Source of the DNA: Succinispira mobilis DSM 6222
GTDB taxonomy: Bacteria > Bacillota > Negativicutes > Acidaminococcales > Succinispiraceae
Direction: 5' to 3'
DNA length: 64,000 bases
Assembly (NCBI RefSeq): GCF_000384135.1
Contig: NZ_KB913028.1
Span: 306,351 to 370,350, forward strand
Part shown: positions 43,310-59,183 of the stretch, one piece after another
How the letters are laid out: each line of letters begins with the position of its first letter
How positions within the stretch are numbered: position 1 is the stretch's first letter
The notes under the pieces: generated by a model
Databases searched by the model: none
What the model was told of the DNA's origin: nothing
What the model saw: only the letters and a program-made list of their open reading frames with translations
Translations under genes and position numbers: made by a program

Positions 43310-43400
43310 GGAGTGATACTCAAGCGGCTGAAGAGGACGGTTTGCTAAATCGTTAGGGGTGTTAAAGCCCGCCAGGGTTCAAATCCCTGTCACTCCGCCA
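43310..43400 (+). tRNA. tRNA-Ser (anticodon GCT)
   Basis: The acceptor GGAGTGA pairs with TCACTCC. The anticodon arm contains TTGCTAA with GCT. It has a long variable arm, GTTCAAATCC T-loop and encoded CCA. It is five bases after the first tRNA. Its last ten bases begin the 250-bp direct repeat found again at 47481. Confidence 0.96.
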
Positions 43401-43640
43401 TTTAAAAGTTAAGAGCTTTCAAGATTATTTCTTGAAAGCTCTTTTTGTTTTCAGAGTTAACCTTATAGGTTGGCTCTAATTTTTTTTGCTGGGCAAAGGC
43501 AAGACAATCGAACTAGCAAAATTCTTAGCTTGAATTTCCATATTAAAAGTACCGTCATATTTTTCTACACTACTACGAATACTATCCAGACCAATGCCGC
43601 GCGACTTAAAGTCAAGTTTGCTGGACAGATAGTTCTGTTC
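43391..43640. repeat. Direct repeat copy A (250 bp)
   Basis: This stretch is nearly identical to 47481-47729, with two substitutions near 43466 and one T-run length difference near 43485. It runs from the last ten bases of tRNA-Ser(GCU), through the terminator, into the 3' end of a histidine-kinase gene on the minus strand. Past 43640 the copies diverge abruptly at DNA level while still encoding related protein. Confidence 0.92.
43411..43447. terminator. Terminator of the tRNA operon (copy A)
   Basis: AAGAGCTTTCAAG and CTTGAAAGCTCTT pair perfectly around a 7-base loop and are followed by TTTTG. On the minus strand it would also end the kinase remnant. It is repeated at 47501. Confidence 0.9.
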
Positions 43641-43803
43641 TTCATCCTGCTTTAACTGGCCGTCAAAGCTGTTATCCAGAGCTATGACAAAGGCACGACC
43701 TAATTGTTGCAGCGTAAGATTAAGCAGACGATCTTGTCCTTCCTGCACCAGCGAGCAGAGTTTATCGACCTCGGCCCCGCATAGTGCACACCACAATCCG
43801 CAT
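43476..43803 (-). pseudogene. Fused remnant of a LytTR response regulator start and histidine-kinase end
   Basis: Read on the minus strand, the first six codons from ATG 43803 are MRIVVC, matching the start MRIVIC of the intact regulator at 50562. After a frameshift, EVDKLCSLVQE matches its CQVNKLCDLVQK. This runs into QLGRAFVIALDNSFDG and the rest of a HATPase domain, which matches the kinase at 47553. The middle, including the receiver, the LytTR domain and most of the kinase genes, is deleted. The part beyond 43640 is GC-richer than the conserved repeat. Confidence 0.82.
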
Positions 43804-43820
43804 GCCACTCCCTCACTTCT

Positions 43821-43870
43821 AAAACAATGAAATCCTTGTATTTAAAATATACAAAGATTTCATTGTTTTT
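43821..43870. repeat. Large inverted repeat in the divergent promoter of cassette A
   Basis: AAAACAATGAAATC-C-TTGTAT and ATACAA-A-GATTTCATTGTTTT are inverted copies with one opposed mismatch, giving about 20-bp arms. TTTTT follows on the plus strand. There is no counterpart in the downstream cassette promoter. It may be a terminator isolating the two divergent units or a small inserted element. Confidence 0.7.
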
Positions 43871-43903
43871 ATCACGCATAGCTATCTTTTTCGTCCCCTT
43901 CAA

Positions 43904-43990
43904 GCAAACTTTTTGCCTTCAAGCAAACTTTTTGCCTTCAAGCAAACTTTTTGCCTTTCAAGCAAACTTTTTGCCTTTCAAGCAAACTTT
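43904..43990 (+). promoter_or_regulatory. Five tandem LytTR-type operator repeats (cassette A)
   Basis: GCAAACTTT occurs at 43904, 43923, 43942, 43962 and 43982, with periods of 19, 19, 20 and 20 bases. Its reverse complement AAAGTTTGC fits the published LytTR direct-repeat consensus (W-M-M-GTT-N-R-Y). The spacing puts all boxes on about the same DNA face. The last box begins 33 bases upstream of the -10 element at 44015. Confidence 0.72.
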
Positions 43991-44014
43991 GCTTTGTTTT
44001 TGCCAAAATTTCGC

Positions 44015-44020
44015 TATAAT
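44015..44020 (+). promoter_or_regulatory. -10 element of the cassette A glycosyltransferase-autotransporter operon
   Basis: TATAAT is exact, but no good -35 hexamer lies 16-18 bases upstream, as expected for an activator-dependent promoter with operator boxes just upstream. Confidence 0.55.
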
Positions 44021-44085
44021 ACAGAAAATGGCAGTCTGTTTGCCTGTTGCCGAAAACGCAAATAACCAAGGAGGAGATTTTAACT

Positions 44086-45045
44086 ATGGAAGAATACCAT
44101 TTTGCCTTCGGAATAGATGCCAACTACGTAAAATACGCGGGTGTTGTCATGACATCCATCGTCTGGAACCATCCCGGCCAGTCTATCTGCTTCCATCTGG
44201 CCTGTGACGGCCTGCATAAAGAAGACAAATCACGCTTGGAAACCTTCAGTAAACTCTATAGCCATACGCGCATCGAGCTCTACGACGTGCGCGAACAACT
44301 GCAAAGTATAAAGCTCTTTGCCGGCACCGTGCCGGAGAGGCTGAATCGCACAGTATTTTTGCGGATACTGCTGCCGGAGTTGTTGCCGGAAACGGCGCGG
44401 CGCCTGGTGTACTTAGACGCCGACATGCTCTGCGTCGGCGACCTCGCCCCGCTGTGGAATGCAAATCTGGAAGAACGGGCCGTCGGTGCGCTCCTCAATC
44501 CTGGCAACCTGCGCCTGAGCCGCGGCTTGGGCCTTTCGCACACACGCTATCTGAGCGCCGGAACGTTGGTTATCGATGTAGCCAAATGGCGCGAGCAAAA
44601 GCTAACCCAACGCGTGCTCAAAGCCTATAGAAAGCACGGCGCGCGCTTCAGCCTGCTGGAAGAAGACGCGCTCAATCTGGTGCTGGACGGCGACTTTACC
44701 GAGTTGCCTGCTGAATGGATTGCCTTCAGCGAAGCCTTTAATCCGCTGTTGCTGCGACGGCAGCCGGGAAACCTGCTGCTGCACTTTGTCAATGACGGCA
44801 AACCTTGGATCCGTTACTGCGCCCCTGAGATGGAAGAGCTCTACTGGGGTTATGTGCGTCGCTCCCTCTGGGCCGATATGCAACCCCTGGAGCCATGGGA
44901 AGTAAAGATTGCCTTTCTCGCCGGTCTCAACGCCAAAGAAAATCGCCGCTTTGAGGACGCGGCCCATTACCTGAGCCTAGCTGGCGAGCGTCTGATGCAA
45001 TACTACCTTGAGCATACCGGACAAATCATATCAGGAAAGGATTGA
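44086..45045 (+). CDS. GT8 family glycosyltransferase (cassette A, GC-rich)
   Basis: The 319-residue protein starts with YHFAFGIDANYVKYAGVVMTS, the GT8 nucleotide-sugar loop, and has the metal-binding DAD in LDADMLC, an SAGTLVIDVAKW segment, and LHFVNDGKPW with the conserved histidine. GT8 members transfer glucose or galactose from UDP-sugars. ATG 44086 follows AAGGAGG. It is 5 bases upstream of an autotransporter gene, so the likely acceptor is that protein. DNA is visibly GC-rich, using CTG, CGC and GCC codons where the homologue at 50833 uses TTA, CGT and GCT. The function is inferred from the family and context. Confidence 0.87.
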   Translation: MEEYHFAFGIDANYVKYAGVVMTSIVWNHPGQSICFHLACDGLHKEDKSRLETFSKLYSHTRIELYDVREQLQSIKLFAGTVPERLNRTVFLRILLPELLPETARRLVYLDADMLCVGDLAPLWNANLEERAVGALLNPGNLRLSRGLGLSHTRYLSAGTLVIDVAKWREQKLTQRVLKAYRKHGARFSLLEEDALNLVLDGDFTELPAEWIAFSEAFNPLLLRRQPGNLLLHFVNDGKPWIRYCAPEMEELYWGYVRRSLWADMQPLEPWEVKIAFLAGLNAKENRRFEDAAHYLSLAGERLMQYYLEHTGQIISGKD

Positions 45046-45050
45046 AACCC

Positions 45051-47015
45051 ATGAAACGAAGAAATAAGAAAAAACAACTTGCCTGCGCCCTGCAGGCCAT
45101 GTGCCTCGGTGGCGTCCTGCTCGCAGCAGACCCTGCGGCGGTCTGTGAAGCGGCGACGATCATCACAACACAGACCTACAGCAATCAAAGCCCGACCATT
45201 ACCGACGACATCAACATCACCGACGGCTACATCTCTGTAAGCGGCTATAACGGATCGGATACGGTCAACCTCACTGGGCAGAACATTTATATTAATCAGG
45301 GTAGTAGTGCCTACGCCCTCCTGGCAAAGGGGGTAGCAGGAGGCTGTGCGTCTGGCTACGGCGTCTTAAGGATCAACACAAACGATTCCTCTACAGTGCG
45401 AATTATCGGTAATGTAGAAACCGCCCCGCCTGATGGTTGCGCTACTGGAAGAATATATCTTTACTTAACAAACGCCGACTCCTTTCTGGCTGGAATGCCA
45501 ATACAGGGCAGTGGCAGTATAAACCTTAGCTTCACCAACGGCGCTACCTGGTATATACCGGAAGACGTTAACACTTTCACCGGAACAAGGGAAGGGGGGG
45601 TATCAGTATCTGCTGTCGGAGGCAATATCGACATTTACCATACACGGCCTGGCACAGTGCGCAGTGCCGCCGTCGGGACGCGCACCTTTAGTGCCGCTGG
45701 TGCTGACAACACTGGAGAGGGCAGCTTGTCGTTAAACGGCGCCACCTTCGCCCTCTCCAGTGACATCAAAAACAATCTGACCGATAAGGTCGTGCTTACC
45801 AAGGTCTCCGGCAATCCCCTTGATATTGTTGGAGCCGGTTGGGGGAGGGTCAACAACTACGCCCTCCAGATTGTCTACGACCCGGCCATGAGCAAGGACG
45901 GCACCTATACGGCCAGTGACCTAACGATCCTTACTACCGACAATACCGGTGATACGGTGACGGCCAAGGACTACCTGACTACCCGCACCGAAGCGGCTGG
46001 TCTAAAAACGGTAAATATCAAGCTTACACCTACCCTCAGCACCAGCGGCGGCGTGACCAAGCTCACCGCCCTCACCGTCAAGAACACTGATAGCGCCGGT
46101 CCAGCGGCAACCATGGCTAGTGCGGCGTCCGCCGCCCAGATGGCGGCTCTTGGCGCCTGGCGGGCGGAAAATAACGATCTGCAACGGCGTCTAGGCGATT
46201 TGCGTTGGGATGAAGGCAACGCCGGGGCCTGGGCGCGCGCCTATGGGGGCAAGAGTCAGATTCATAGTGGTGCTGGATCGGAAATTAGCTATCACGGCAT
46301 TCAGGTCGGCTATGACCGTGCCCGAACAATCGAAGAGGGCCGGATTTTCACCGGCATTGCAGTTTCCAATATGAAAGGCGATGCCTCGGGAACTGCGGGC
46401 AGGAGTGATCTCGACTCCAAGCTTTTTGGTATTTACGGCAGTTATGTTGGTAAAAGCGGGCACTTTATCGATGCGATTGTTAAATACGGACGCTTCACCA
46501 ACGACACCAATCGTACCCATGAGGGGATAAATTATGCCGGTGACTATGGCACGAACGGTCTCAACATGTCCCTCGAATACGGCTACCACCAGCAGCTACA
46601 TAACGGCTTTTACTTAGAGCCGCAGGCCGAGGTGAACTACAGCCATCTCAACAGCAGCTCCTATACCATGAACGCCGGCGGCACCAGCGGCGCCTTTGTC
46701 CGAAATAGTGGCGTAGACTCGCTCATCGCCCGCGTCGGCGTCAATGCCGGACGCAATACCAAAAACGGCAATATCTACCTCAAGCTCTCCTGCCTCCACG
46801 AGTTCAACGGCGACACCGGCATGACGGCCAACTATAATGGTACAACCGTCAGCAGTGATTCCTCCGGCAGCGATACCTGGATTGAGTACGGTGTTGGCTT
46901 CAATCAACGCATTGGGCAGAGCCAGAACCTCTACGGGGAGATCACTCGCAGTGCTTGCGCTGACAAGGTCAGCGACGACTGGAAGGCGAACCTTGGCTGG
47001 CGGGTTAGTTTCTAA
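45051..47015 (+). CDS. Autotransporter adhesin-like protein (cassette A, GC-rich)
   Basis: A basic N-terminus and hydrophobic segment ending near CEAAT form a Sec signal. The passenger is rich in glycine, asparagine and threonine, followed by a helical linker (AQMAALGAWRAENNDLQRR). A C-terminal beta-barrel of about 260 residues ends in LGWRVSF with terminal phenylalanine, as needed for Bam recognition. At 654 residues it is a small type V protein. ATG 45051 is well spaced from AGGAAAGG; an earlier in-frame TTG at 45042 is not. The barrel is closely related to that at 51850, while the passenger start differs. Confidence 0.88.
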   Translation: MKRRNKKKQLACALQAMCLGGVLLAADPAAVCEAATIITTQTYSNQSPTITDDINITDGYISVSGYNGSDTVNLTGQNIYINQGSSAYALLAKGVAGGCASGYGVLRINTNDSSTVRIIGNVETAPPDGCATGRIYLYLTNADSFLAGMPIQGSGSINLSFTNGATWYIPEDVNTFTGTREGGVSVSAVGGNIDIYHTRPGTVRSAAVGTRTFSAAGADNTGEGSLSLNGATFALSSDIKNNLTDKVVLTKVSGNPLDIVGAGWGRVNNYALQIVYDPAMSKDGTYTASDLTILTTDNTGDTVTAKDYLTTRTEAAGLKTVNIKLTPTLSTSGGVTKLTALTVKNTDSAGPAATMASAASAAQMAALGAWRAENNDLQRRLGDLRWDEGNAGAWARAYGGKSQIHSGAGSEISYHGIQVGYDRARTIEEGRIFTGIAVSNMKGDASGTAGRSDLDSKLFGIYGSYVGKSGHFIDAIVKYGRFTNDTNRTHEGINYAGDYGTNGLNMSLEYGYHQQLHNGFYLEPQAEVNYSHLNSSSYTMNAGGTSGAFVRNSGVDSLIARVGVNAGRNTKNGNIYLKLSCLHEFNGDTGMTANYNGTTVSSDSSGSDTWIEYGVGFNQRIGQSQNLYGEITRSACADKVSDDWKANLGWRVSF

Positions 47016-47115
47016 AACAGTTTTGCTGGCTTAAGGTGGTGGAGCAGACTTATATTTTCAATTTTTACATGATTTGCCCACGGCATAATATAATTGGCAG
47101 GGCTAAATCATATAG

Positions 47116-47145
47116 CGGTTTGTGAAATCGTTAGAGGTGTAAACC
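47116..47145 (+). pseudogene. Fragment resembling tRNA-Ser(GCT) anticodon and variable arms
   Basis: CGGTTTG-TG-AAATCGTTAG-A-GGTGT aligns with 43338-43365 of the intact tRNA with about five differences in 29 bases. The anticodon GCT has become GTG. The rest of the tRNA is not recognisable until CACTCCGCCA at 47481. It looks like a decayed copy interrupted by about 300 bases. Confidence 0.45.
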
Positions 47146-47351
47146 TATATAGCCATGCGTTATTTAACAATTCCGTTATTTGACAATATTATCATGTTGC
47201 GAATGTCGAATTTCTATGTCTGAGAGATGTCGCTAATGTAGATTAAGATCGTTATTCTGTCTGGTGGTTAGGTATGTCAGGTTATGAGACCTGATGCGTT
47301 ATTAAATAATTTAGTTTATATCGTTATATAATTGAAATGCAAAGGCAAAAT

Positions 47352-47385
47352 ATGGGTTGATTATAAAAACTTATAATTAACCCAT
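47352..47385. repeat. Inverted repeat, 15-bp arms
   Basis: ATGGGTTGATTATAA (47352-47366) and TTATAATTAACCCAT (47371-47385) pair throughout with one G-T and a 4-base loop. There is no T tract on either side. Its role is unknown. Confidence 0.6.
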
Positions 47386-47480
47386 AGGGAGTGGTCTTAG
47401 ATACGATGATAAAAAAGAAGGCATTTATAACATAAACGCATGTTTTTAGGGGGAATCAGGATATTAGTGATATTCCGACC

Positions 47481-47729
47481 CACTCCGCCATTTAAAAGTT
47501 AAGAGCTTTCAAGATTATTTCTTGAAAGCTCTTTTTGTTTTCAGAGTTAACCTTAAGGGTTGGCTCTAATTTTTTTGCTGGGCAAAGGCAAGACAATCGA
47601 ACTAGCAAAATTCTTAGCTTGAATTTCCATATTAAAAGTACCGTCATATTTTTCTACACTACTACGAATACTATCCAGACCAATGCCGCGCGACTTAAAG
47701 TCAAGTTTGCTGGACAGATAGTTCTGTTC
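47481..47729. repeat. Direct repeat copy B (249 bp)
   Basis: This is the second copy of 43391-43640, offset by 4,090 bases, starting with the last ten bases of a tRNA-Ser (CACTCCGCCA) without the rest of the tRNA. It contains the terminator (47501-47535) and the 3' end of the kinase gene. Confidence 0.92.
47501..47535. terminator. Terminator (copy B)
   Basis: It is identical to 43411-43445: AAGAGCTTTCAAG and CTTGAAAGCTCTT with a T tract on the plus strand and an A-rich flank. On the minus strand it lies just after the kinase stop and probably ends the regulatory operon. Confidence 0.75.
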
Positions 47730-48930
47730 GTTGTCTTGTTGACTTTGACCATCAAAACTATTATCGAGAGTAATAACTAGATTATCGCCTAGTGTTAAGA
47801 GAACGAGTTTTAAATATCTTTTTTCTGGTGCTGTAACTTTAGTTAAGGCTTCGGTGGCATTACGCAATAGGTTGCCTAAGATTGCTGTCATATCTAAAGG
47901 ATCAATGGGATTTTGCTTACCTAAATTAATTTCCCAAGTAGTTTCTACTGCTAAATTTTGTAAAACCCCTTGCCAATAATTAATGAGTGCGTTCACTAAA
48001 TCATTGCCACAAAGCGGTATTCCTAAAGGAAAAATTGCTTTGGTCGAGAAAACCGTGGGCGTAATTGTTGAGCGCTAGATAATTATTTTGAGCCAGAAAA
48101 TTATTGATGTTGTCGACAAATACTTGTAACTTGTTTTGGAATAATTGCGTGTTTTTTTCTATTTCCGTTAAATTTTGGTAATGTTCCTGCTCGGCTAAGT
48201 GCATTTCCTGCGTAACGGCTAAAATTGAGTTTAGTTGTCGTTGTCTAATTGCTTCGCGTGCCGCATACAGAGCGATTATCGTCCCTATTAAGCCACCGCA
48301 AGAAGCGATTAGGCGCACACAAAAGGCCGTGAAACTACGATCCTCATTAAACGGACTGGCCAAAATTGATAGAGCTAGCGTGACAAAAGTCAGTCCAGCC
48401 AGTGGTGACCAAAGTTTGGGGATAGAGTTATTGGCAAGTAAGGGTGCGGCAAAATGTTCGCTATAAAGCCAAAAAAAATAAAGGCAAAGCAAGGTTTCTA
48501 ATAATAAGATGAAACCAGTTTGAAAAAAAGGTACAGGGAACAGGGGGAAGTTATATTCAAGGGCATAAGCAATGGAAGTTAAACAAAACCAGACCATACC
48601 TAGGGGGGCAATTAAACAAAATTGCTTAGCCCAGGGGACTTTAATTACTATAGATAGATAAAAAAAATAGACTAGATGGAAAACAAAGCCAATGCGCGGT
48701 GAAAAAATCTGCGCATACTCTAACTGAATAGCTGATTCTAAACTAATAAGGATAAGTAGCCCAAAAAAAATTTTTTTTAAAGGGTACCGCAAATAGTGTC
48801 GAAAAATATAACATCGGATGAGATTGGCTGGTAAAATGTGGGCGAAAGTATAAAAAATGCTGGCTAACAAACTTAGTAGTGGCCAGTTTTGGATAATTTC
48901 GCTGGCATTTCCAGAAAAAATATAAGACAC
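47553..48930 (-). pseudogene. AgrC-like sensor kinase with ATPase domain, frameshifted, phospho-acceptor His absent
   Basis: Two frames cover one gene. From the ATG complement at 48928-48930 come six or seven membrane helices and a coiled coil, ending at 48001. The HATPase half (CGNDLVNALINYW, NLLRNATEAL, DNSFDG, KSRGIGLDSI) continues in the next frame to 47553. Removing one base from the five-A run at 48030-48034 joins them as NFPLGIPLCGNDLVNAL, the expected layout. Where AgrC-type kinases have RHD, this protein has LFQNKLQ, so the acceptor histidine is missing. It may be phase-variable, a recent pseudogene or a sequence error. Confidence 0.78.
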
Positions 48931-48947
48931 AACTAACCTCCGGATAA

Positions 48948-49811
48948 TTATTTCATATTGTTTTTAGAGCCAAGACTATCACTAATACCTTGTAAATAGC
49001 ACTTAAGCTCTTGTTGGCTAGATGCTTTAGCTAGCGCTAGCACGGTAAGGACATGGGATTGTAAATCATGGCGTAAACGCCTAGAAGAGCGCCAGCGTTC
49101 CATAATATCAGCATAGCGTTGCCGCTCAAATTCTTGTAAAACTTGCAGACTGTTAAGGAGATTACGGGCATAATCGCGCGCATTAATACTTTGGCAGAGG
49201 TAGACCATTATTTGAACACAAGCGATATTCGCTACCAAGAGCAAAAAGCGTGAAATTAGCACCCGCGGTGCTAAAGTTTGATGCCAGGGATCAATAAGTA
49301 AGACAATAAAAATTAAAACTAATTCGTAAGCTGCTAAATAAAGCCAAGGTTTTTTCTCTTGAACAGCTATTAAGGGGCGGAGTACTTGACGGATATACAC
49401 TAAAGTGGGGTAGATAAAGCTTAGAATAATTACCGTAATAACTAGGTTAGCAGTTAGATACGGAATTGTGGTCGGGAAAAATGCTTCAGCAATTCGCGCT
49501 AAGCTAAGCGTTAGAAAGGCTAAGGGGAGGGTTAATAAACTGATGGCTAGGACTTTGCCGGCAAACGCCTTGATGGTTAGAAGTGGATAGAGGATATACA
49601 GTAGTTGGAGCAGGAGGGATAGTTGCTGGTTAAAAGCGTTTGGAAATTGAACTTGAACTAAAACCTCACCACTTAATAACAATAAATACAGCGAGCTAGT
49701 AGGTAAAACTCCCCAACGGAGTTGGGTGCGAAAGGTATAAAAAATCAAACAGCTAAAGGGCAGAATATGGATAAAAGTATAATACAGGGTGCTGAAGGTT
49801 GCCAGTGTCAT
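48948..49811 (-). CDS. AgrC-like sensor with phospho-acceptor His but no ATPase domain
   Basis: This 287-residue protein has about six or seven membrane helices whose start (FYTFIHILP) matches the partner at 48930 (FYTFAHILP). A coiled coil and the phospho-acceptor region RRLRHDLQSHVLTVL follow, and then the protein stops at the point where the HATPase domain should begin. It is thus the complement of the downstream protein. It lies 25 bases after the response regulator and 17 before the kinase gene, in one operon. It could be autophosphorylated in trans by its neighbour. Confidence 0.8.
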   Translation of the reverse strand: MTLATFSTLYYTFIHILPFSCLIFYTFRTQLRWGVLPTSSLYLLLLSGEVLVQVQFPNAFNQQLSLLLQLLYILYPLLTIKAFAGKVLAISLLTLPLAFLTLSLARIAEAFFPTTIPYLTANLVITVIILSFIYPTLVYIRQVLRPLIAVQEKKPWLYLAAYELVLIFIVLLIDPWHQTLAPRVLISRFLLLVANIACVQIMVYLCQSINARDYARNLLNSLQVLQEFERQRYADIMERWRSSRRLRHDLQSHVLTVLALAKASSQQELKCYLQGISDSLGSKNNMK

Positions 49812-49836
49812 TGCAAAACTCCTCTACTAGACTAGA

Positions 49837-50562
49837 TTACGAGGTGTGTGCTGTACGCACTTTGAGAATTAAGTACTCGTGATATTGGCTACGAATACGA
49901 CTATAACGCTTACTGGAAATTGGTAACTTGAGTTGCTCGCTTAGAGTTAGTCCCGTTTCATCTAGGCTTTGGACATAATCGGCATTGATCAGTAGACCGC
50001 GATAACAGGCGAGAAATTGGGCTGGGGGCAGTTGCTCGCTAAGATGGGCTAAGGCAAGATTGCAATCGACCAGGCTCCCATTACTAAGATGCAGGCGCGT
50101 TTTTCTGTCAACTGTTTCTAAATATAAAATATCTGTGAGCGGAATTTGTAGCGGCATATAGTCTACGACTAAATCTAAGGTAGGGCGTGGGGCTTGGAAA
50201 AAGCGGCTACGTAATAAAGCGGTTTGCAATTTTTCTAAGCTCACTGGTTTGAGAATATAATGGGCGGCGGTAACCTCGAAAGCATCTAAAGCATAATCGG
50301 GGCTGGAGGTAATAAAGATTATGACACAATCGGCATTAAAGCGGCGCAAAATTCGGGCAGCTTCAATACCATTATCAGAACCTAAACAAATATCGAGCAA
50401 AACAATATCGGCGCGTACTTTGGCCACATCCTCTAAAAAGCGCTTATAACTAGTAACAGGGCGAATGTCAGCCGTTACATTTTGCTGGGCGCAAACTTTT
50501 TGTACGAGATCGCAAAGTTTATTTACTTGGCAGACTTCATCATCACAGATAACAATGCGCAT
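49837..50562 (-). CDS. LytTR-family response regulator (AgrA/LytR type)
   Basis: An N-terminal receiver has the acidic pair DD at 7-8, phospho-acceptor D57 in ADIVLLDICLG, and the conserved lysine in ILKPVSLEKL. The C-terminal LytTR DNA-binding domain spans about 140-240, with ILYLETVDRKTRLHL and FLACYRGLLINADYVQSL. ATG at the complement of 50560-50562 has GTGAGG seven bases upstream, better than a TTG six bases earlier (242 residues). It is divergent from the glycosyltransferase and autotransporter operon, whose promoter carries LytTR-type repeats, so it is the likely activator. Confidence 0.9.
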   Translation of the reverse strand: MRIVICDDEVCQVNKLCDLVQKVCAQQNVTADIRPVTSYKRFLEDVAKVRADIVLLDICLGSDNGIEAARILRRFNADCVIIFITSSPDYALDAFEVTAAHYILKPVSLEKLQTALLRSRFFQAPRPTLDLVVDYMPLQIPLTDILYLETVDRKTRLHLSNGSLVDCNLALAHLSEQLPPAQFLACYRGLLINADYVQSLDETGLTLSEQLKLPISSKRYSRIRSQYHEYLILKVRTAHTS

Positions 50563-50697
50563 AAACAAACCTCACTTTGCAAAAAATGTATTTAACAGCG
50601 ATTAACAATGATTTAAGAGCATTTAATAGCATATTATAAATTATACAGCATTTTTTATATTTTTAGTAGAGGCGGAGAGTACTATTTTGCCACTGGA

Positions 50698-50726
50698 GCA
50701 AACTTTTTGCCTGTTATACAAACTTT
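50698..50726 (+). promoter_or_regulatory. Two LytTR-type operator repeats (cassette B)
   Basis: GCAAACTTT at 50698-50706 and ACAAACTTT at 50718-50726 have a 20-base period. The second box begins 33 bases before the presumed -10 (TAAGAT, 50751-50756), exactly the distance seen in cassette A. Confidence 0.7.
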
Positions 50727-50832
50727 GCTTGGCTTTTGGCAGATTTTCGCTAAGATAAATAAGATAAGTTAGGGTGTACTGTGGATAGAAATGAGTAAAT
50801 GAATATTTTAACTAACAAAAGGAGCGATATTT

Positions 50833-51777
50833 ATGGGAGAATATCAAATTGCCTTTGGAGTAGATGCCAATTATGTGAAGTATGCAGGGATTGTGATGAC
50901 CTCGATTGTACTCAATCACCCGGGGCAACCGATCACCTTTCACTTAGTCTGCGATCGCCTGTTAGTAGCGGACAAAGAAAAATTGGATACTTTTACGCAG
51001 TTATATCGCAATACGCGTATTTTCATTTACGATGCGCATGAGATGTTACAGAAAATCCCGAGAGTTTCGGCTGCGGTAGCGCCAGAACGTTTAAATCAAA
51101 CGGTGTTTTTGCGCGTATTAATGCCGATGCTGTTACCACTAGAATTTAAACGGGTAATTTATTGTGATGCAGATATGCTGTGTTTAAAGAATATGGCCGA
51201 GCTGTGGCAGTTGGATTTGCAAGGTCAGCCTTTAGCGGCGGCTATGGAAGGCGATTATCAAGACAAAGCAAAACGCTTGGGCTTAAAGCAAAATCGCTAT
51301 TTTAATGCTGGGTTTATGGTGATTGATTTAGAACGTTGGCGACAGTTAGATTTAACTCGCCAGGTTTTAGACTGTTACCAACAGCAGGGCGCAACCTTTT
51401 CTTTATTAGAACAAGATGCGCTAAATAAAGTGTTGGAGGGTGCTTGGTTGGAAATAAGTCCCTATAAGGTTTATTTGCTAGATGCTTTTGAAGAAACTAG
51501 GATTACGCCACAGCCAGAGAATATTTTTTGGCACTTTCTTAATGAAGGGAAGCCGTGGATTGCTTATTGTGCGGCGCAAATTGAAAAAACCTATTGGAGT
51601 TATGTGCGGCGTTCCTTGTGGTATGAGTTGGAGCCTTCAGAACCTTGGGAAGTGCGGATTGCCCTATTAGCGGGCAAAAATGCCCGGCGGCGCGGCCAAT
51701 ATAAAGCTGCGGCTGATTATTTAGAAGTTGCCGCAGAGCGGTTATTTGAATTTTATTGTGCGCAGACTAAACGCTAG
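50833..51777 (+). CDS. GT8 family glycosyltransferase (cassette B)
   Basis: This 314-residue homologue of the enzyme at 44086 has YQIAFGVDANYVKYAG, the metal-binding DAD in YCDADMLC, RYFNAGFMVIDLERW and FWHFLNEGKPW. Both share a C-terminal helical extension beginning near YWSYVRRSLW and ending in a PWEVRIALLAG helix. AAAGGAG precedes the ATG. The autotransporter gene begins 73 bases downstream. As with cassette A, glycosylation of that autotransporter is the most economical role. Codon use matches the surrounding AT-rich genome. Confidence 0.88.
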   Translation: MGEYQIAFGVDANYVKYAGIVMTSIVLNHPGQPITFHLVCDRLLVADKEKLDTFTQLYRNTRIFIYDAHEMLQKIPRVSAAVAPERLNQTVFLRVLMPMLLPLEFKRVIYCDADMLCLKNMAELWQLDLQGQPLAAAMEGDYQDKAKRLGLKQNRYFNAGFMVIDLERWRQLDLTRQVLDCYQQQGATFSLLEQDALNKVLEGAWLEISPYKVYLLDAFEETRITPQPENIFWHFLNEGKPWIAYCAAQIEKTYWSYVRRSLWYELEPSEPWEVRIALLAGKNARRRGQYKAAADYLEVAAERLFEFYCAQTKR

Positions 51778-51849
51778 TTTTAAAACTAGCACTAAGCAGC
51801 GAAAATGACAATCAGTATTTAAGAAAAAACAATAAAGGAGTTTTAGCTT

Positions 51850-53688
51850 ATGACAAAAAAACAAAAAGCCCAATTATTAAGTGCCTTACTATTAAGCACG
51901 AATCTACTATGCCCAAGTATAACTCAAGCAGCTTTATATGATGGCGGCACTTATAATGAGGATATTACGTTGACAGAGGAAATGGGGGTGGGCGCTTATG
52001 CAAATAATATCCCCGTAAACATCAATGGTAATCTAAAAATAACGGCACCTATAGCTTTGTTTGTGTCTGGCACTAGTGCTGCTGTTCGGGGGATATTAAA
52101 GATCAATATGAATAAAAATAAAACAGTGCAGCTAGAAGGGGATATCTTTGGCAGCGGCGCAGGCACCCTGGGGGAAGTTTATGTAAATTTTGCGAATTCC
52201 GACTCCTATTTAGCAGGTCTTGTCAACGATGGATTCTCTGTGGCGAATATAGCTTTTAGCAATGGCGCTACTTGGTATGTGTCAGAGGATGCGGGAATTT
52301 GGAACACTACGGTCAGCGGTGCTAATATTAATCTTTGGCAAACTAAGCCTAATACAATTCGGGGCACAGATGCGGGGGACAGGACTACAACTTTAGGGAA
52401 GACTGATGGTATGGTTGAAGGTAAGTTAAATGGCGCTAATTTTGTGCTATCCAGTGATATCGAAAATAATGCCGCGGATAAGGTGATTTTAAAAGGGGTT
52501 ACTGGTAGTAATACCTATACGGTGCAAATTGCTTATGACCCAGCCCTAGAAAAGGGTAATGCAACTTATCTGCCCGCTACTGCCCCAGTAGTGTTAAAAA
52601 CTGAAGATTCCAGTGGTAGCTATACTGCCTTGCCCAAAACCTACAAAACTACGCGGCCGGCAGCTATGGGCTTAACTACAGAAGATATTCAACTTACCCC
52701 ACAACTTACTACAGCTGCCGGGGAAACTAAATTGACCGGCTTGCTAGTAGAAAAAGCGACAACGGGCGAGGGTCCGGCGGCAGTTATGGCTGGGGCGGCG
52801 GCTAGTGCCCAAATGTCGGCACTTAGTGCTTGGCGGGCAGAAAACAATGATTTGCAACGTCGTATGGGGGATTTGCGTTGGGACGAAGGGGAGGCTGGTG
52901 CTTGGGTAAGGGCTTATGGTGGTGAAAGCGAGATCAAAGGCAGTAGCGCGGCTACCGCCAGTTATCATGGCCTTCAAGCCGGCTATGATCGCGCTCATAA
53001 ATTAGCTACGGGTAAGTTGTTTACAGGCTTGGCAATCTCTAAGATGAAAAGCGATGTAAGTGGTAGTGGTGGCAGTAGTGATTTAGATTCGAATTTGGTG
53101 GGGATATATGGTAGTTATGTGGGTGAGCGGGGGCACTTTGTAGACGCGATTGTCAAATATGGGCGAATTGCCAATAGCAGCATCCATCACCAAGACGGGG
53201 TCAGTTATGCAGGCGATTACGCGACTCGCGGCTTAAATATGTCGCTTGAATATGGTTATCGTCAACAACTAGCTAAGGATTTTTATCTAGAACCGCAAGT
53301 AGAGTTAAACTATAATCGGGTTAATAGTAGTAGCTATACCATGACCGCTGATGGAACGGCAGGCGCACAGGTGCAAAACCAAGGCTTAGATTCTTTAATT
53401 GGCCGTTTGGGAATTAATGCTGGGCATAAAACAGAAAAGGGCAATGTCTATTTGAAATTATCCTGCCTACATGAATTTAAAGGCGATACAAATATGACGG
53501 CAAATTATAACGGTACGACGGTACAAAAGCAAACTTCGGGAAGTGATACTTGGCTAGAATATGGGCTAGGCTTTGATCAACGTTTGGCAAAAAATCAAAA
53601 TTTATATGGTGAAATTACCCGTGCCGCCTTTGCCGATAAAATTAGCGACAAATGGAAAGCAAACTTAGGTTGGCGGATGAGTTTTTAA
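51850..53688 (+). CDS. Autotransporter adhesin-like protein (cassette B)
   Basis: The signal peptide ends near TQAAL. The passenger contains GATWYVSEDAG and LNGANFVLSSDIENN, paralleled in the cassette A protein. The helical linker (ALSAWRAENNDLQRRMG) leads to a C-terminal beta-barrel ending LGWRMSF. At 612 residues it is 42 shorter than the cassette A protein, mainly in the N-terminal passenger. It has a good AAGGAG site. It is exported through the outer membrane and presumably displayed. Possible acceptors for glycosylation are the many serines and threonines of the passenger. Confidence 0.9.
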   Translation: MTKKQKAQLLSALLLSTNLLCPSITQAALYDGGTYNEDITLTEEMGVGAYANNIPVNINGNLKITAPIALFVSGTSAAVRGILKINMNKNKTVQLEGDIFGSGAGTLGEVYVNFANSDSYLAGLVNDGFSVANIAFSNGATWYVSEDAGIWNTTVSGANINLWQTKPNTIRGTDAGDRTTTLGKTDGMVEGKLNGANFVLSSDIENNAADKVILKGVTGSNTYTVQIAYDPALEKGNATYLPATAPVVLKTEDSSGSYTALPKTYKTTRPAAMGLTTEDIQLTPQLTTAAGETKLTGLLVEKATTGEGPAAVMAGAAASAQMSALSAWRAENNDLQRRMGDLRWDEGEAGAWVRAYGGESEIKGSSAATASYHGLQAGYDRAHKLATGKLFTGLAISKMKSDVSGSGGSSDLDSNLVGIYGSYVGERGHFVDAIVKYGRIANSSIHHQDGVSYAGDYATRGLNMSLEYGYRQQLAKDFYLEPQVELNYNRVNSSSYTMTADGTAGAQVQNQGLDSLIGRLGINAGHKTEKGNVYLKLSCLHEFKGDTNMTANYNGTTVQKQTSGSDTWLEYGLGFDQRLAKNQNLYGEITRAAFADKISDKWKANLGWRMSF

Positions 53689-55598: not shown

Positions 55599-57125
55599 AT
55601 GGAAAAGATCGATTTAGGTAAAAAAATAGGGCAAATTCTAGTGGCAGGCTTAGTTTTGGGGCTGTGGGCAAACTCACCAGTTAATGCCAGCGAACTAGAA
55701 GAGCCACTGTTAAAATTGCACAAAGATGCACAAGGTAATTATTATCAAGTGCCCGAGACCAAAGCAACCACTGTTGAAGCAACGAATACAACAACTCAAG
55801 AAATAAAAAAGAAGAAAAAAAATAAAAAGCAAAAACAGGAACAAGTAGCTTTACCGACAACTGTCTATGCAGAAAATTTAACTTTTGACAATAAGACGGG
55901 TAATATTCAAGCAACTGGCAAGGTACAAGTAGTACGTGGTGGCGAGAGTATTATCACGGAAAAATTAGATGGTAACTATAACACCGGTGATTTGTGGTTA
56001 CATGAAGGTGGACAATATCTAAGTCCTACCGCAGATTTAACTGCTGTTCAAGGTCAGTATAACTATAATGATAAAGTTGGCGCCATGCAAACGGTTAAAG
56101 GCAAAATAGATAAAGAATATATTACTTCCGAGCATGTTGATATTTATCCCGATCGGTACAAGGCAGGCAAAAGCACGATAACTCGCTGTAATGCGCATAA
56201 ACCAGACTTTTATGCGAAAGCAGAGCGGGTAGATATTTTTCCTGGTAAAAAAATGATTGCCTATAATATGAAAGTGTATATTAAGGATCAGTTAATGTAT
56301 ACCCAAGAACGCTATGTTCAGGATATTACCCCTGGACAAGAAGATTCAATGTTTCCAACCATTCGCTATGACAATAAAGATGGCCTAGAGATTAAAAAAC
56401 GCTTTACGAAATCCATAGGACATGAAGTAGAGGCTTTTTTTGATTTTGATTTATATACAGAATCGGGATTTAAACCAGTTGCGGGTGTGATTCATGATAC
56501 CGATAATTATGCGGTACAGGTTTTAACTGGAGAGCAGCGCGATAGTGATAAAAATTGGATTACCAAAGAACCAGAGGCACGCTTTGATTATAAGACGAAA
56601 AAAATTGCGGATACTCATTTGAATTATAGTTTCTATGCACTGCATGGTAAGTGGGTAGATGATGATAAAAGTAGTTGGCATACTGATTTGGGCGTACGTT
56701 TATCTAGAGATCCGATTTACTTATCGCCTGATAAAAGCTGGTGGTTGAATCTAGGGACAGGTTATAGTCGCATCTTGGAAAGCTATGACCATTCAAAACG
56801 CAATGTGTTTACCGCTAACGGGGTATTTAATAAACGCTTTAATGAGCGATTGCAAGCCTGGACTGGATATTACTATACTAGTGACAAGAGTTCACTTTTT
56901 GACTATGATGACCCAGATATGAGTAAGGAAATTAGAACTGGTCTTAGTTATCAACTAACCGCTAGAGATGTGTTGAAAATTGAACATCGTTACGACGTGC
57001 AAAACAGTAATACTTATGATTTAGATTTCGCAATTGTTCATAATATGCACTGTATGGAATTAGAAATAGGTTATCGTCATAAACGCAATGAGTTTAATAT
57101 GCATTGGCGGTTAGTAAATTGGTAA
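55599..57125 (+). CDS. lptD: LPS assembly protein LptD (short form)
   Basis: After a signal peptide (cleavage near VNASE) and a lysine-rich linker, an OstA-like beta-jellyroll follows (YAENLTFDNKTGNIQATGKVQVVRG). A long outer-membrane beta-barrel continues to the C-terminus, ending HWRLVNW. LptD with LptE inserts LPS into the outer leaflet. At 508 residues from ATG 55599 it is much shorter than proteobacterial LptD. ATG 55599 has TGGAGG upstream; the frame opens earlier inside the terminator. It is directly followed by ADP-heptose genes, confirming an LPS locus. Confidence 0.85.
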   Translation: MEKIDLGKKIGQILVAGLVLGLWANSPVNASELEEPLLKLHKDAQGNYYQVPETKATTVEATNTTTQEIKKKKKNKKQKQEQVALPTTVYAENLTFDNKTGNIQATGKVQVVRGGESIITEKLDGNYNTGDLWLHEGGQYLSPTADLTAVQGQYNYNDKVGAMQTVKGKIDKEYITSEHVDIYPDRYKAGKSTITRCNAHKPDFYAKAERVDIFPGKKMIAYNMKVYIKDQLMYTQERYVQDITPGQEDSMFPTIRYDNKDGLEIKKRFTKSIGHEVEAFFDFDLYTESGFKPVAGVIHDTDNYAVQVLTGEQRDSDKNWITKEPEARFDYKTKKIADTHLNYSFYALHGKWVDDDKSSWHTDLGVRLSRDPIYLSPDKSWWLNLGTGYSRILESYDHSKRNVFTANGVFNKRFNERLQAWTGYYYTSDKSSLFDYDDPDMSKEIRTGLSYQLTARDVLKIEHRYDVQNSNTYDLDFAIVHNMHCMELEIGYRHKRNEFNMHWRLVNW

Positions 57126-57136
57126 GGAGTGTAAAT

Positions 57137-57715
57137 ATGCAAGAAATAATACAACAACGAATAGCAGAACATATTAATGTAGCACAAGCCCTCTATCAAC
57201 AGCAGGGGGAAAAAATAGAAGTTGCCGCGAGTGTTTTGGCGTGGGCCTTAAAAACCGGTAAAAAAGTTTTATTTTGTGGTAACGGTGGTAGTGCCGCAGA
57301 TGCGCAACATTTAGCGGCAGAATTTGTGGGGCGTTATTTGTTAGAACGTGAGGGCTTACCGGCAATTGCTTTAACCACAGATACCTCGATTTTGACAGCA
57401 GTTGCTAATGATTATGATTTTGCCAATGTTTTTGCGCGCCAAGTGCAAGCCTTAGGCAATAATGGCGATGTTTTAATTGGGATTTCTACGTCGGGCAATA
57501 GTCCGAATGTGGTACGGGCGATCGAGGTTGCTAAAGCTAAAGGCATTGCGACAATTGGTTTTACTGGCCAAGGCGGTGGAAAGATGCGCGAATTATGCGA
57601 TGTTTGTTTGGCCGTAGATAGCAAGGTAACTGCGCGTACGCAAGAGATGCATATTCTTATGGGGCATATTCTCTGTGAATTGTTAGATGGAGTTTTAATA
57701 AATCATGAAAAATAA
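57137..57715 (+). CDS. gmhA: Sedoheptulose-7-phosphate isomerase
   Basis: The SIS-fold enzyme has NGGSAADAQHLAAEFVGRY and ISTSGNSPNVVRA, both signatures of GmhA, and a C-terminal HILMGHILCE. It converts sedoheptulose 7-phosphate to D-glycero-D-manno-heptose 7-phosphate, the first step of ADP-heptose synthesis. The ATG at 57137 has AAGGAG; an earlier in-frame start would overlap lptD. Its end overlaps hldE by 11 bases. Confidence 0.95.
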   Translation: MQEIIQQRIAEHINVAQALYQQQGEKIEVAASVLAWALKTGKKVLFCGNGGSAADAQHLAAEFVGRYLLEREGLPAIALTTDTSILTAVANDYDFANVFARQVQALGNNGDVLIGISTSGNSPNVVRAIEVAKAKGIATIGFTGQGGGKMRELCDVCLAVDSKVTARTQEMHILMGHILCELLDGVLINHEK

Positions 57716-59183
57716 AGAACGAGTTAATGAGTTTTTTAATAATGCAATAACTAAGCTTAAAATTGCAGTAATTGGGGATTTGATGCTCGATCGCTATTAT
57801 TTTGGCGAAGTAAAACGAATTTCACCGGAAGCTCCAGTGCCAGTTAACCGCGTGCATCGCGAGAGTATGACTTTGGGTGGCGCAGGCAATGTAGCCAATA
57901 ATTTGGCACAACTAGGCGTACAAGTTTTTGCGGCTGGATTAGTTGGGGCGGATAGCAACAAAGAACAGCTGTTAACTTTGATGCAGGCACAAAATATTGA
58001 TACTACAGGCTTAATTGTCAGTCAAGAGCGACCGACAATTACTAAATTGCGAGTTATTGGTGGAAGTCAGCAAATGTTACGTCTGGACTTTGAACAAGCA
58101 GGGATTTTGAGCAATCAAGAACAGGTAGAACTCCAAGCTTGGCTCGACAAGTTGCTAGCACAAGGTTTGGATGCTGTGATTATTTCTGACTATGCTAAGG
58201 GGGTTTGTACCCCAGAACTATGTCAATATATTATAAAACAAGCTCATTATCAAAAAGTACCAGTGTTAGTAGATCCTAAAGGCAGTGATTGGCATAAATA
58301 TGCTCAAGCTGATTATATAACTCCTAATGTTAAAGAAATGGGCGAATGTATTGGACTTGATTTAATAAATGAGGACGAAGCGATAATTCAAGCAGCCCAA
58401 GAAGCGATGTCTACCTACGCTGTGCGCAATATTGTGGTAACTCGCTCAGAAAAAGGGTTAACTTATGTAGGGCGGGGGCTTGTCTTAAGTGATCAGGCTA
58501 CAGCGCGTGAGGTTTTTGATGTTTCAGGTGCGGGCGATACTATGGCCGCAACTTTTATGAGTGCAGTTGCAGGCAAATTAGTCTTAGAAGACTGTCTACA
58601 AGTAGCTAATTTAGCGGCAGGTGTAGTAGTTGGTAAAGTTGGGACGCAACCAATTATGCGGGCCGAATTGCTCGAAAGCTTGCAATTGGCCAATAACAAT
58701 CCCATTTGCGCTAAAATTGCTAGTTGGGAACAAGCGCAATTATTGATTAAAAATTGGCAACAACAAGGTAAAAAGGTGATTTTTACAAACGGTTGTTTTG
58801 ATATTCTCCACATTGGTCATGCCAACTATTTGGCACAAGCCCGTAATTTGGGCGATAAATTAGTTGTAGGCTTAAATGCAGATAGCTCTGTTCGGGCCTT
58901 AAAAGGGGCAACACGTCCTTTAGTGGATGAAGAAGCTCGTGCTGGTTTGCTAGCTAGCCTAGCTTGTGTGGATATGGTAGTGTTGTTTACTGAACAAACG
59001 CCAGAACAATTATTGAGCGTGCTTAGACCAGATGTATTGGTAAAAGGTGGCGATTATCAGCTAGAACAAGTATTAGGTCGCGAATATGTGCAAGAAGTGG
59101 CCTTGTTAGATTTTACCGAGGGTTACTCTACGAGTAATTTGGTAGAAAAAATAAGTAAATTAGCGAAAGAGGGTAAACTATAA
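57705..59183 (+). CDS. hldE: Bifunctional heptose-7-phosphate kinase/heptose-1-phosphate adenylyltransferase
   Basis: The N-terminal ribokinase-fold domain has MLDRYYFGEVKRISPEAPVP and the catalytic SGAGDTMAATF. The C-terminal nucleotidyltransferase has FTNGCFDILHIGHANYL and KGGDYQLEQV. The two domains together (492 residues) make ADP-D-glycero-beta-D-manno-heptose after GmhB action. It is fused as in E. coli HldE. It overlaps gmhA by 11 bases and abuts hldD, so the pathway is one operon. Confidence 0.95.
   Translation: MKNKERVNEFFNNAITKLKIAVIGDLMLDRYYFGEVKRISPEAPVPVNRVHRESMTLGGAGNVANNLAQLGVQVFAAGLVGADSNKEQLLTLMQAQNIDTTGLIVSQERPTITKLRVIGGSQQMLRLDFEQAGILSNQEQVELQAWLDKLLAQGLDAVIISDYAKGVCTPELCQYIIKQAHYQKVPVLVDPKGSDWHKYAQADYITPNVKEMGECIGLDLINEDEAIIQAAQEAMSTYAVRNIVVTRSEKGLTYVGRGLVLSDQATAREVFDVSGAGDTMAATFMSAVAGKLVLEDCLQVANLAAGVVVGKVGTQPIMRAELLESLQLANNNPICAKIASWEQAQLLIKNWQQQGKKVIFTNGCFDILHIGHANYLAQARNLGDKLVVGLNADSSVRALKGATRPLVDEEARAGLLASLACVDMVVLFTEQTPEQLLSVLRPDVLVKGGDYQLEQVLGREYVQEVALLDFTEGYSTSNLVEKISKLAKEGKL

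Follow-up and report, generated by a model that had tools for sequence, protein, structure and literature searches.

A probable split-kinase LytTR switch over glycosyltransferase-autotransporter modules at a tRNA-Ser locus of Succinispira mobilis

What would one set of regulators be doing beside two pairs of glycosyltransferase and autotransporter genes? Such a locus lies downstream of tRNA-Ser in Succinispira mobilis DSM 6222, where modules A and B each hold the gene of a family 8 glycosyltransferase (GT8) and then that of a classical autotransporter (AT), and where the pair of module B diverges from a LytTR response regulator and AgrC-like sensors. The locus (positions 43391-53688) was studied within the window, a stretch of 64,000 nucleotides (contig NZ_KB913028.1, 306,351 to 370,350, forward strand) from a genome of one contig and 2.09 Mb (G000), and compared with a set of 380 Negativicutes genomes. 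From domain content, conservation and gene order we regard it as probable that a LytTR switch with a sensor kinase split in two stands over modules A and B, with the GT8 enzymes probably glycosylating the autotransporters. A sequence-only reading made earlier had already called these genes, and Pfam puts the LytTR and receiver domains, the GHKL ATPase, the GT8s and the autotransporter barrels at the same positions. Module B and its regulators comprise the following features.

47553-47996, minus strand: C-terminal part of the S2 kinase, GHKL ATPase (CA) domain (PF14501, 66.9 bits), in a frame that differs from 48001-48930
48001-48930, minus strand: N-terminal part of the S2 kinase, membrane domain and DHp region, with N replacing the phospho-acceptor His
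48948-49811, minus strand: S1, AgrC-like membrane sensor with the DHp H-box RHDL and no ATPase domain
49837-50568, minus strand: RR-B, receiver and LytTR response regulator (PF00072 56.6 bits, PF04397 54.2 bits)
50698-50726, no strand: promoter B, with GCAAACTTT and ACAAACTTT at a distance of 20 bp
50833-51777, plus strand: GT8-B glycosyltransferase, DxD motif DADMLC, C-terminal helical tail (PF01501, 135.8 bits)
51850-53688, plus strand: AT-B autotransporter with a beta-rich passenger, a helical linker and a C-terminal barrel (PF03797, 153.3 bits)

To hypothesize, modules A and B would both belong to a small regulon of surface proteins, and the operon 50568-47553 would encode RR-B together with a single sensor kinase whose parts lie on two membrane proteins. 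S1 and S2 would assemble into a hetero-complex, with S2 acting in trans to phosphorylate S1, phospho-S1 would hand the phosphate to RR-B, and phospho-RR-B would bind direct repeats just upstream of the -35 hexamer in promoters B and A, thereby turning on GT8-AT transcription, with the GT8 most likely glycosylating the co-made autotransporter before or during its export.

The case for a split kinase lies in what each protein has lost. In 10 of the 10 genomes with close relatives, S1 carries an RHD H-box and ends 39-42 aa later (39 aa in the window) with no ATPase domain, while S2 keeps its CA domain and has A, T, M or N at the His position. Strong matches to S1 and to S2 occur in the same 10 of the 380 genomes, adjacent every time. 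The His is retained in HK-C, the ordinary kinase of a third module described below, and in 12 of 13 other CA-bearing relatives, the thirteenth belonging, as its S2, to another split pair, and the identical complementary loss is found in distant pairs of two genomes, one Acidaminococcaceae-like (G024) and one Selenomonadaceae-like (G214). Because the reciprocal loss is conserved over this range, it argues for S1 and S2 being complementary halves of one kinase. The sequence-only reading had spoken of an AgrC-like sensor pair, which is correct as to two AgrC-like sensors, but the label hides one kinase that is seemingly split in two. The distant split-kinase pairs stand with LytTR regulators (L147 6937-9583 and L146 8143-10558), and beside the pair of G024 there is no recognised autotransporter.

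The closest known system is FasBCA of Streptococcus pyogenes, in which FasC residues 1-286 (membrane and DHp) suffice, H246 is required, and FasC heterodimerises with FasB, the source of the ATPase (PMC12675982). Both systems have two membrane sensor-kinase-like proteins and one response regulator, with His and ATPase coming from different partners; in the window two AgrC-like sensors and one LytTR/AgrA-type regulator share an operon, the complementarity of His and CA holds by sequence in all ten genomes and both distant pairs, and the working part of FasC has the size of S1 (287 aa). The differences are that FasC keeps an ATPase domain and FasB its DHp histidines, whereas the losses in S1 and S2 are complete and conserved, and that Fas drives a small RNA, whereas S1 and S2 have as neighbours a glycosyltransferase and proteins of type V secretion, in bacteria with two membranes. 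A phosphorylatable His and an ATPase on separate proteins are also present in CheA3/CheA4 (PMC3591291) and Hik36/Hik43 (PMC7656254), but those are CheA-type, with a separate His-bearing domain, whereas S1 and S2 are AgrC-type membrane sensors with the His in DHp. In the open literature searched, the papers found on split kinases deal with the CheA or FasBC types, and a Fas-like switch with an adhesin output is not described there.

S2 is a single open reading frame (ORF) of 451-497 aa in six oral Selenomonas/Centipeda genomes, while in the window a 309-aa ORF is 39% identical to residues 8-298 of the Selenomonas S2 and a 147-aa ORF is 51% identical to residues 307-442; therefore, S2 is frame-shifted here. 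The switch may be off, or the separately translated ATPase fragment may work, or the assembly may be in error. Module B had been called nearly intact, and regulator, sensors, GT8 and AT are indeed present, but its main kinase is the frame-shifted S2. It could be argued from this shift that S2 is a degenerate kinase with no activity and that S1 is a membrane protein with an accessory or inhibitory role, with RR-B either acting unphosphorylated or receiving phosphate from a different kinase, for example HK-C, which is intact in the same genome; LytTR regulators with inhibitory membrane protein partners do exist (LRS, PMC6193735). We consider this improbable, as the S2 ATPase domain is retained in ten genomes, the RHD box of S1 is invariant, the two proteins never separate among the strong matches, the complementary loss is repeated in the distant pairs, and FasBC sets a precedent for the split.

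The regulator operon also bears on the signal. Like agr, the locus has a LytTR regulator and multi-pass sensors of AgrC-like topology, and it had been read as density-controlled, so an agr-type quorum-sensing system with adhesion controlled by cell density has to be weighed. However, the gaps between the regulator genes are only 17-25 nt and leave no room for agrB or agrD, neither of which is listed nearby, and for this reason a quorum peptide gene in the operon was rejected; the NCBIfam AgrA match reaches 32 bits against a cut-off of 400. Unlike agr, the modules thus lack AgrD peptide and AgrB, and the kinase is split, so that a quorum-sensing system of this kind appears very improbable and density control is not supported.

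For the question of whether one regulator serves both modules, the features of module A are needed.

43310-43400, plus strand: tRNA-Ser(GCT) by ARAGORN, its final 10 nt being the start of the direct repeat
43391-43640, no strand: direct repeat copy 1 (tRNA 3' end, terminator, kinase gene 3' end), near-identical to 47481-47729
43476-43808, minus strand: module A regulator remnant, response-regulator gene start fused to kinase ATPase end (PF14501, 46.8 bits)
43904-43990, no strand: promoter A, LytTR-like, with five GCAAACTTT units spaced 19-20 bp apart (minus-strand reading AAAGTTTGC)
44086-45045, plus strand: GT8-A glycosyltransferase (PF01501, 125.9 bits), GC content at third codon positions (GC3) 0.65
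45051-47015, plus strand: AT-A autotransporter (PF03797, 140.7 bits), GC3 0.63
47116-47143, plus strand: decayed tRNA-Ser(GCT) anticodon arm, matching at 24 of 28 nt
47481-47729, no strand: direct repeat copy 2

Promoters A and B both contain 9-bp repeats with 10-11 bp spacers, five units in A and two in B, the last of which stops 9 bp upstream of a -35-like hexamer (TTGCCA at 44000 in A, TTGGCA at 50736 in B), so the LytTR-type repeats that the sequence-only reading saw in the shared promoter are borne out. Published LytTR promoters have spaced direct repeats about 12 bp apart and about 10 bp above the -35 (PMC6193735, PMC2766830), and the layout of A and B agrees with this. In the whole 2.09 Mb genome, five of the eight exact paired CAAACTT matches fall in these two promoters. 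It is most likely that RR-B serves module A as well as B, because the repeat pairs are concentrated in both promoters and have a LytTR-like layout above the -35. The consensus score alone failed to separate most promoters from their shuffles, while conservation and genome-wide pattern counts did, and autocorrelation at 19-22 bp reached clear significance in A and C alone.

A further line of evidence comes from Selenomonas, where the region between regulator and GT8 contains a near-invariant block, GCGTTCATGACATACTTTCGGCGTTTATGACAACTTT. Its pattern was searched with at most two mismatches, and the reversed pattern was used as a control. The box gave 15 sites, covering nine of nine Selenomonas-type genomes with the split kinase and none of four congeners without it, and the reversed pattern gave 0 sites; these nine genomes are related, so they do not count as nine independent events. 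Downstream of each of the 15 sites lies a GT8-AT pair, an Ion_trans-TpsA operon or a gene for a very large exoprotein that matches no Pfam family. In one of the genomes (G134), a second, regulator-less GT8-AT pair far from the regulator has kept the same box, which, together with the repeats and -35 shared by A and B, fits the earlier suggestion of one regulator acting on two modules. In S. infelix, the GT8-AT pair is followed by TpsA and its TpsB transporter.

The link between GT8 and AT is close. All 15 of the closest GT8 matches (>370 bits) adjoin an AT, in either gene order, and all 15 of the closest AT matches adjoin a GT8; the adjacency persists in the absence of regulators and amid differing flanks, and a further, more distant pair was found in G008. 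The order regulator-GT8-AT recurs in six oral Selenomonas/Centipeda genomes, including S. infelix, Centipeda periodontii, Selenomonas sp. FOBRC6 and oral taxon 892. The sequence-only reading had proposed a search for this gene order and had tied its case to co-occurrence of GT8 and AT in other Negativicutes, and both were found. As to the enzymes, the Glyco_transf_8 scores of 125.9 and 135.8 bits are far above the cut-off of 24.3, the fold is GT-A, D112-A-D114 is invariant, and the GT8-B model (mean predicted local distance difference test, pLDDT, 91) has LgtC, WbbM, LARGE1, GlyE and glycogenin as its nearest folds. The ATs have the PF03797 domain of type Va autotransporters, and the AT-B model shows a helix at 309-344 and a barrel like those of EspP, BrkA and AIDA-I.

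The simplest reading would be that the GT8 glycosylates the adjacent AT. The enzyme may instead make an envelope glycan of lipopolysaccharide (LPS) or capsule type that is merely co-regulated with the adhesin, leaving the AT unmodified; LgtC and WbbM, to which the GT8 is nearest in sequence and fold, are LPS enzymes, and related GT8s of Pectinatus (about 260-280 bits) have an AT neighbour in none of five cases. This we find rather unlikely, given the 15 of 15 adjacency in both gene orders, even without regulators and with differing flanks, and given that within one genome every one of the three modules has retained a GT8 of its own.

Several relatives of these genes differ in architecture. The Pectinatus GT8 genes (L055-L059) stand beside dnaA-dnaN-recF-like genes. 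GT8 genes beside an AT at L050 8226-10229 and L052 7306-9267 are about 650 aa long, and in Anaerovibrio slackiae the second half of such a GT8 is a fused GT2 domain, a fusion which suggests a two-sugar glycan. A metagenome-assembled genome (MAG) of a rumen Selenomonas has a 1216-aa autotransporter ORF in which the passenger type is repeated about three times (L042 4979-8629), and a Negativicutes MAG has an inverse autotransporter-like protein of 1292 aa between the GT8-AT pair and the LytTR regulator (L043 12590-16468).

A glycosyltransferase gene adjoining a classical autotransporter gene is already known from AIDA-I/Aah and TibA/TibC. Their enzymes, of the bacterial autotransporter heptosyltransferase (BAHT) family, are GT-B-like, dodecameric heptosyltransferases with a four-Cys iron finger and ADP-heptose as donor (PMC4358343). 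Modules A and B differ in that the enzyme is an LgtC-like GT8 of GT-A fold with a DxD motif; the GT-B-like domain and the four-Cys iron finger are absent from it, and TibC is not among the fold matches listed. We know of no LytTR control of BAHT autotransporter systems.

GlyE and other GT8 enzymes act on streptococcal serine-rich repeat surface adhesins, in a pathway that belongs to Gram-positive serine-rich repeat proteins. The GlyE structure (PDB 5gvv) is among the nearest folds to the GT8-B model, although sequence identity is about 16%. Searches of the open literature that paired autotransporters with either LytTR or GT8 found only incidental papers. Shortly after module B, at 57104-59183, GmhA- and HldE-like heptose genes were recognised by eye; heptosyltransferases modify other autotransporters, but despite these genes the module B enzyme is a GT8.

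The same genome has a third module, C, about 1.5 Mb away at 1.861-1.867 Mb (L008 6180-11669) beside tRNA-Leu, consisting of an AT, a GT8, a divergently placed LytTR regulator and HK-C, an ordinary kinase in one intact piece. The genome contains exactly three GT8s of this kind and three matching ATs, all in modules A, B and C, and only two LytTR genes, in B and C. Near the GT8 start of module C lie three 19-bp repeats, AAAAAATACAATAAAGATT, unlike the A and B repeats or LytTR sites. In another genome (G010, L150 7112-13229) an ordinary kinase and a LytTR regulator adjoin a 1184-aa autotransporter, and therefore the link between LytTR and autotransporters is wider than the split kinase.

Several points weigh against a split-kinase switch over GT8-AT modules. 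Scores of the LytTR 9-mer consensus are modest, being matched by 78 of 300 shuffles for A and 9 of 300 for B, and the repeat spacing in both promoters is 19-20 bp and not 21 bp. The Selenomonas box is absent from the window genome, whose motif differs, so that homology of the sites across families is not supported. In three Selenomonas-type genomes the split kinase lies opposite a TpsA-type operon that has no GT8, and GT8-AT pairs without a nearby LytTR operon occur in four genomes (G260, G104, G115 and G263); therefore, regulator and pair are separable. To these are added the frame shift of S2 and the Pectinatus GT8s. With all of this considered, we still regard the split-kinase switch over modules A and B as probable.

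LytTR two-component control, split kinases, GT8 enzymes and autotransporters are all known already. What appears to be new is an AgrC-type membrane kinase whose reciprocal split is complete and which is linked to GT8-autotransporter operons and to TpsA operons. More tentatively, and with somewhat less than even confidence, we propose that Negativicutes have a fixed, obligate AgrC-type split kinase in which two inputs must meet before LytTR fires, and that its regulon would be type V surface proteins, including ATs glycosylated by a dedicated GT8 as a second route beside the heptosyltransferases. If the split is real, it would be a natural, conserved case of a two-receptor kinase, which until now had been demonstrated in FasBC alone, and there with truncated protein. 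A switch-like, bistable output is predicted for split kinases (PMC3591291), and such an output would fit an adhesin that is either on or off. The sites described also give a computed adhesin regulon for oral and gut Selenomonas-type bacteria, and the GT8 enzymes are a possible second class of autotransporter glycosyltransferases.

How module A came to lie at this place is a separate question. ARAGORN finds two tRNA-Ser genes, ending at 43400, and the direct repeat consists of the last 10 nt of tRNA-Ser(GCT), a terminator and the kinase 3' end, with few differences over about 250 nt, after which identity falls off abruptly. GT8-A and GT8-B are 51% identical, AT-A and AT-B 55%, and the GC3 of the module A genes (0.63-0.65) is far from that of 45 other window ORFs (0.32 +/- 0.035; z about 9). 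A recent tandem duplication was therefore rejected, with genes about 50% identical and near-identity limited to about 250 nt. The modules had been called duplicated and allelic: two modules of the same type do exist, but the duplication is not recent, there is a third module, and A and B are old, partly foreign paralogs. GT8-B branches with a rumen Selenomonas MAG (67%) while the AT-A and AT-B barrels group together, so the GT8 and AT histories disagree, and a common origin of A, B and C within the lineage is unsupported.

The earlier statement that copy A has lost its regulators save for a remnant is confirmed, as only the fused piece at 43476-43808 is kept, in which CGAEVDKLCSLVQEGQDR is similar to DDEVCQVNKLCDLVQKVCAQQ of RR-B. 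In the remnant, the beginning of a regulator gene is fused to the final part of a kinase gene, and therefore A would once have had the full operon, whose middle was lost by deletion. On the best reading, recombination at tRNA-Ser brought in module A, which is either foreign or long diverged, and sequence was exchanged recently over the end of the kinase gene; most likely it arrived by transfer or recombination there and then lost its own regulators.

A genomic island made by an integrase, with module A as a passenger that has no functional tie to B, would explain a direct repeat beginning in the tRNA-Ser 3' end, the decayed tRNA-Ser arm on the far side and the foreign GC3. However, no integrase gene was found in 43-54 kb of the window, so that of a tRNA-targeted integrative island only the tRNA 3'-end repeat is present; the identity does not stop at the tRNA but extends about 240 nt further, into the kinase gene, as it would after gene conversion or homologous recombination, and promoters A and B have repeats and -35 in common. 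An unconnected island is thus doubtful in our view, and recombination at tRNA-Ser is preferred. Two further observations concern the borders of module A: the decayed arm lies within about 465 nt of non-coding DNA (47016-47480), about 340 nt ahead of the second tRNA 3' end, and between the remnant and the promoter A repeats, at 43821-43869, lies an inverted repeat whose 21-nt arms match almost perfectly around a 7-nt loop.

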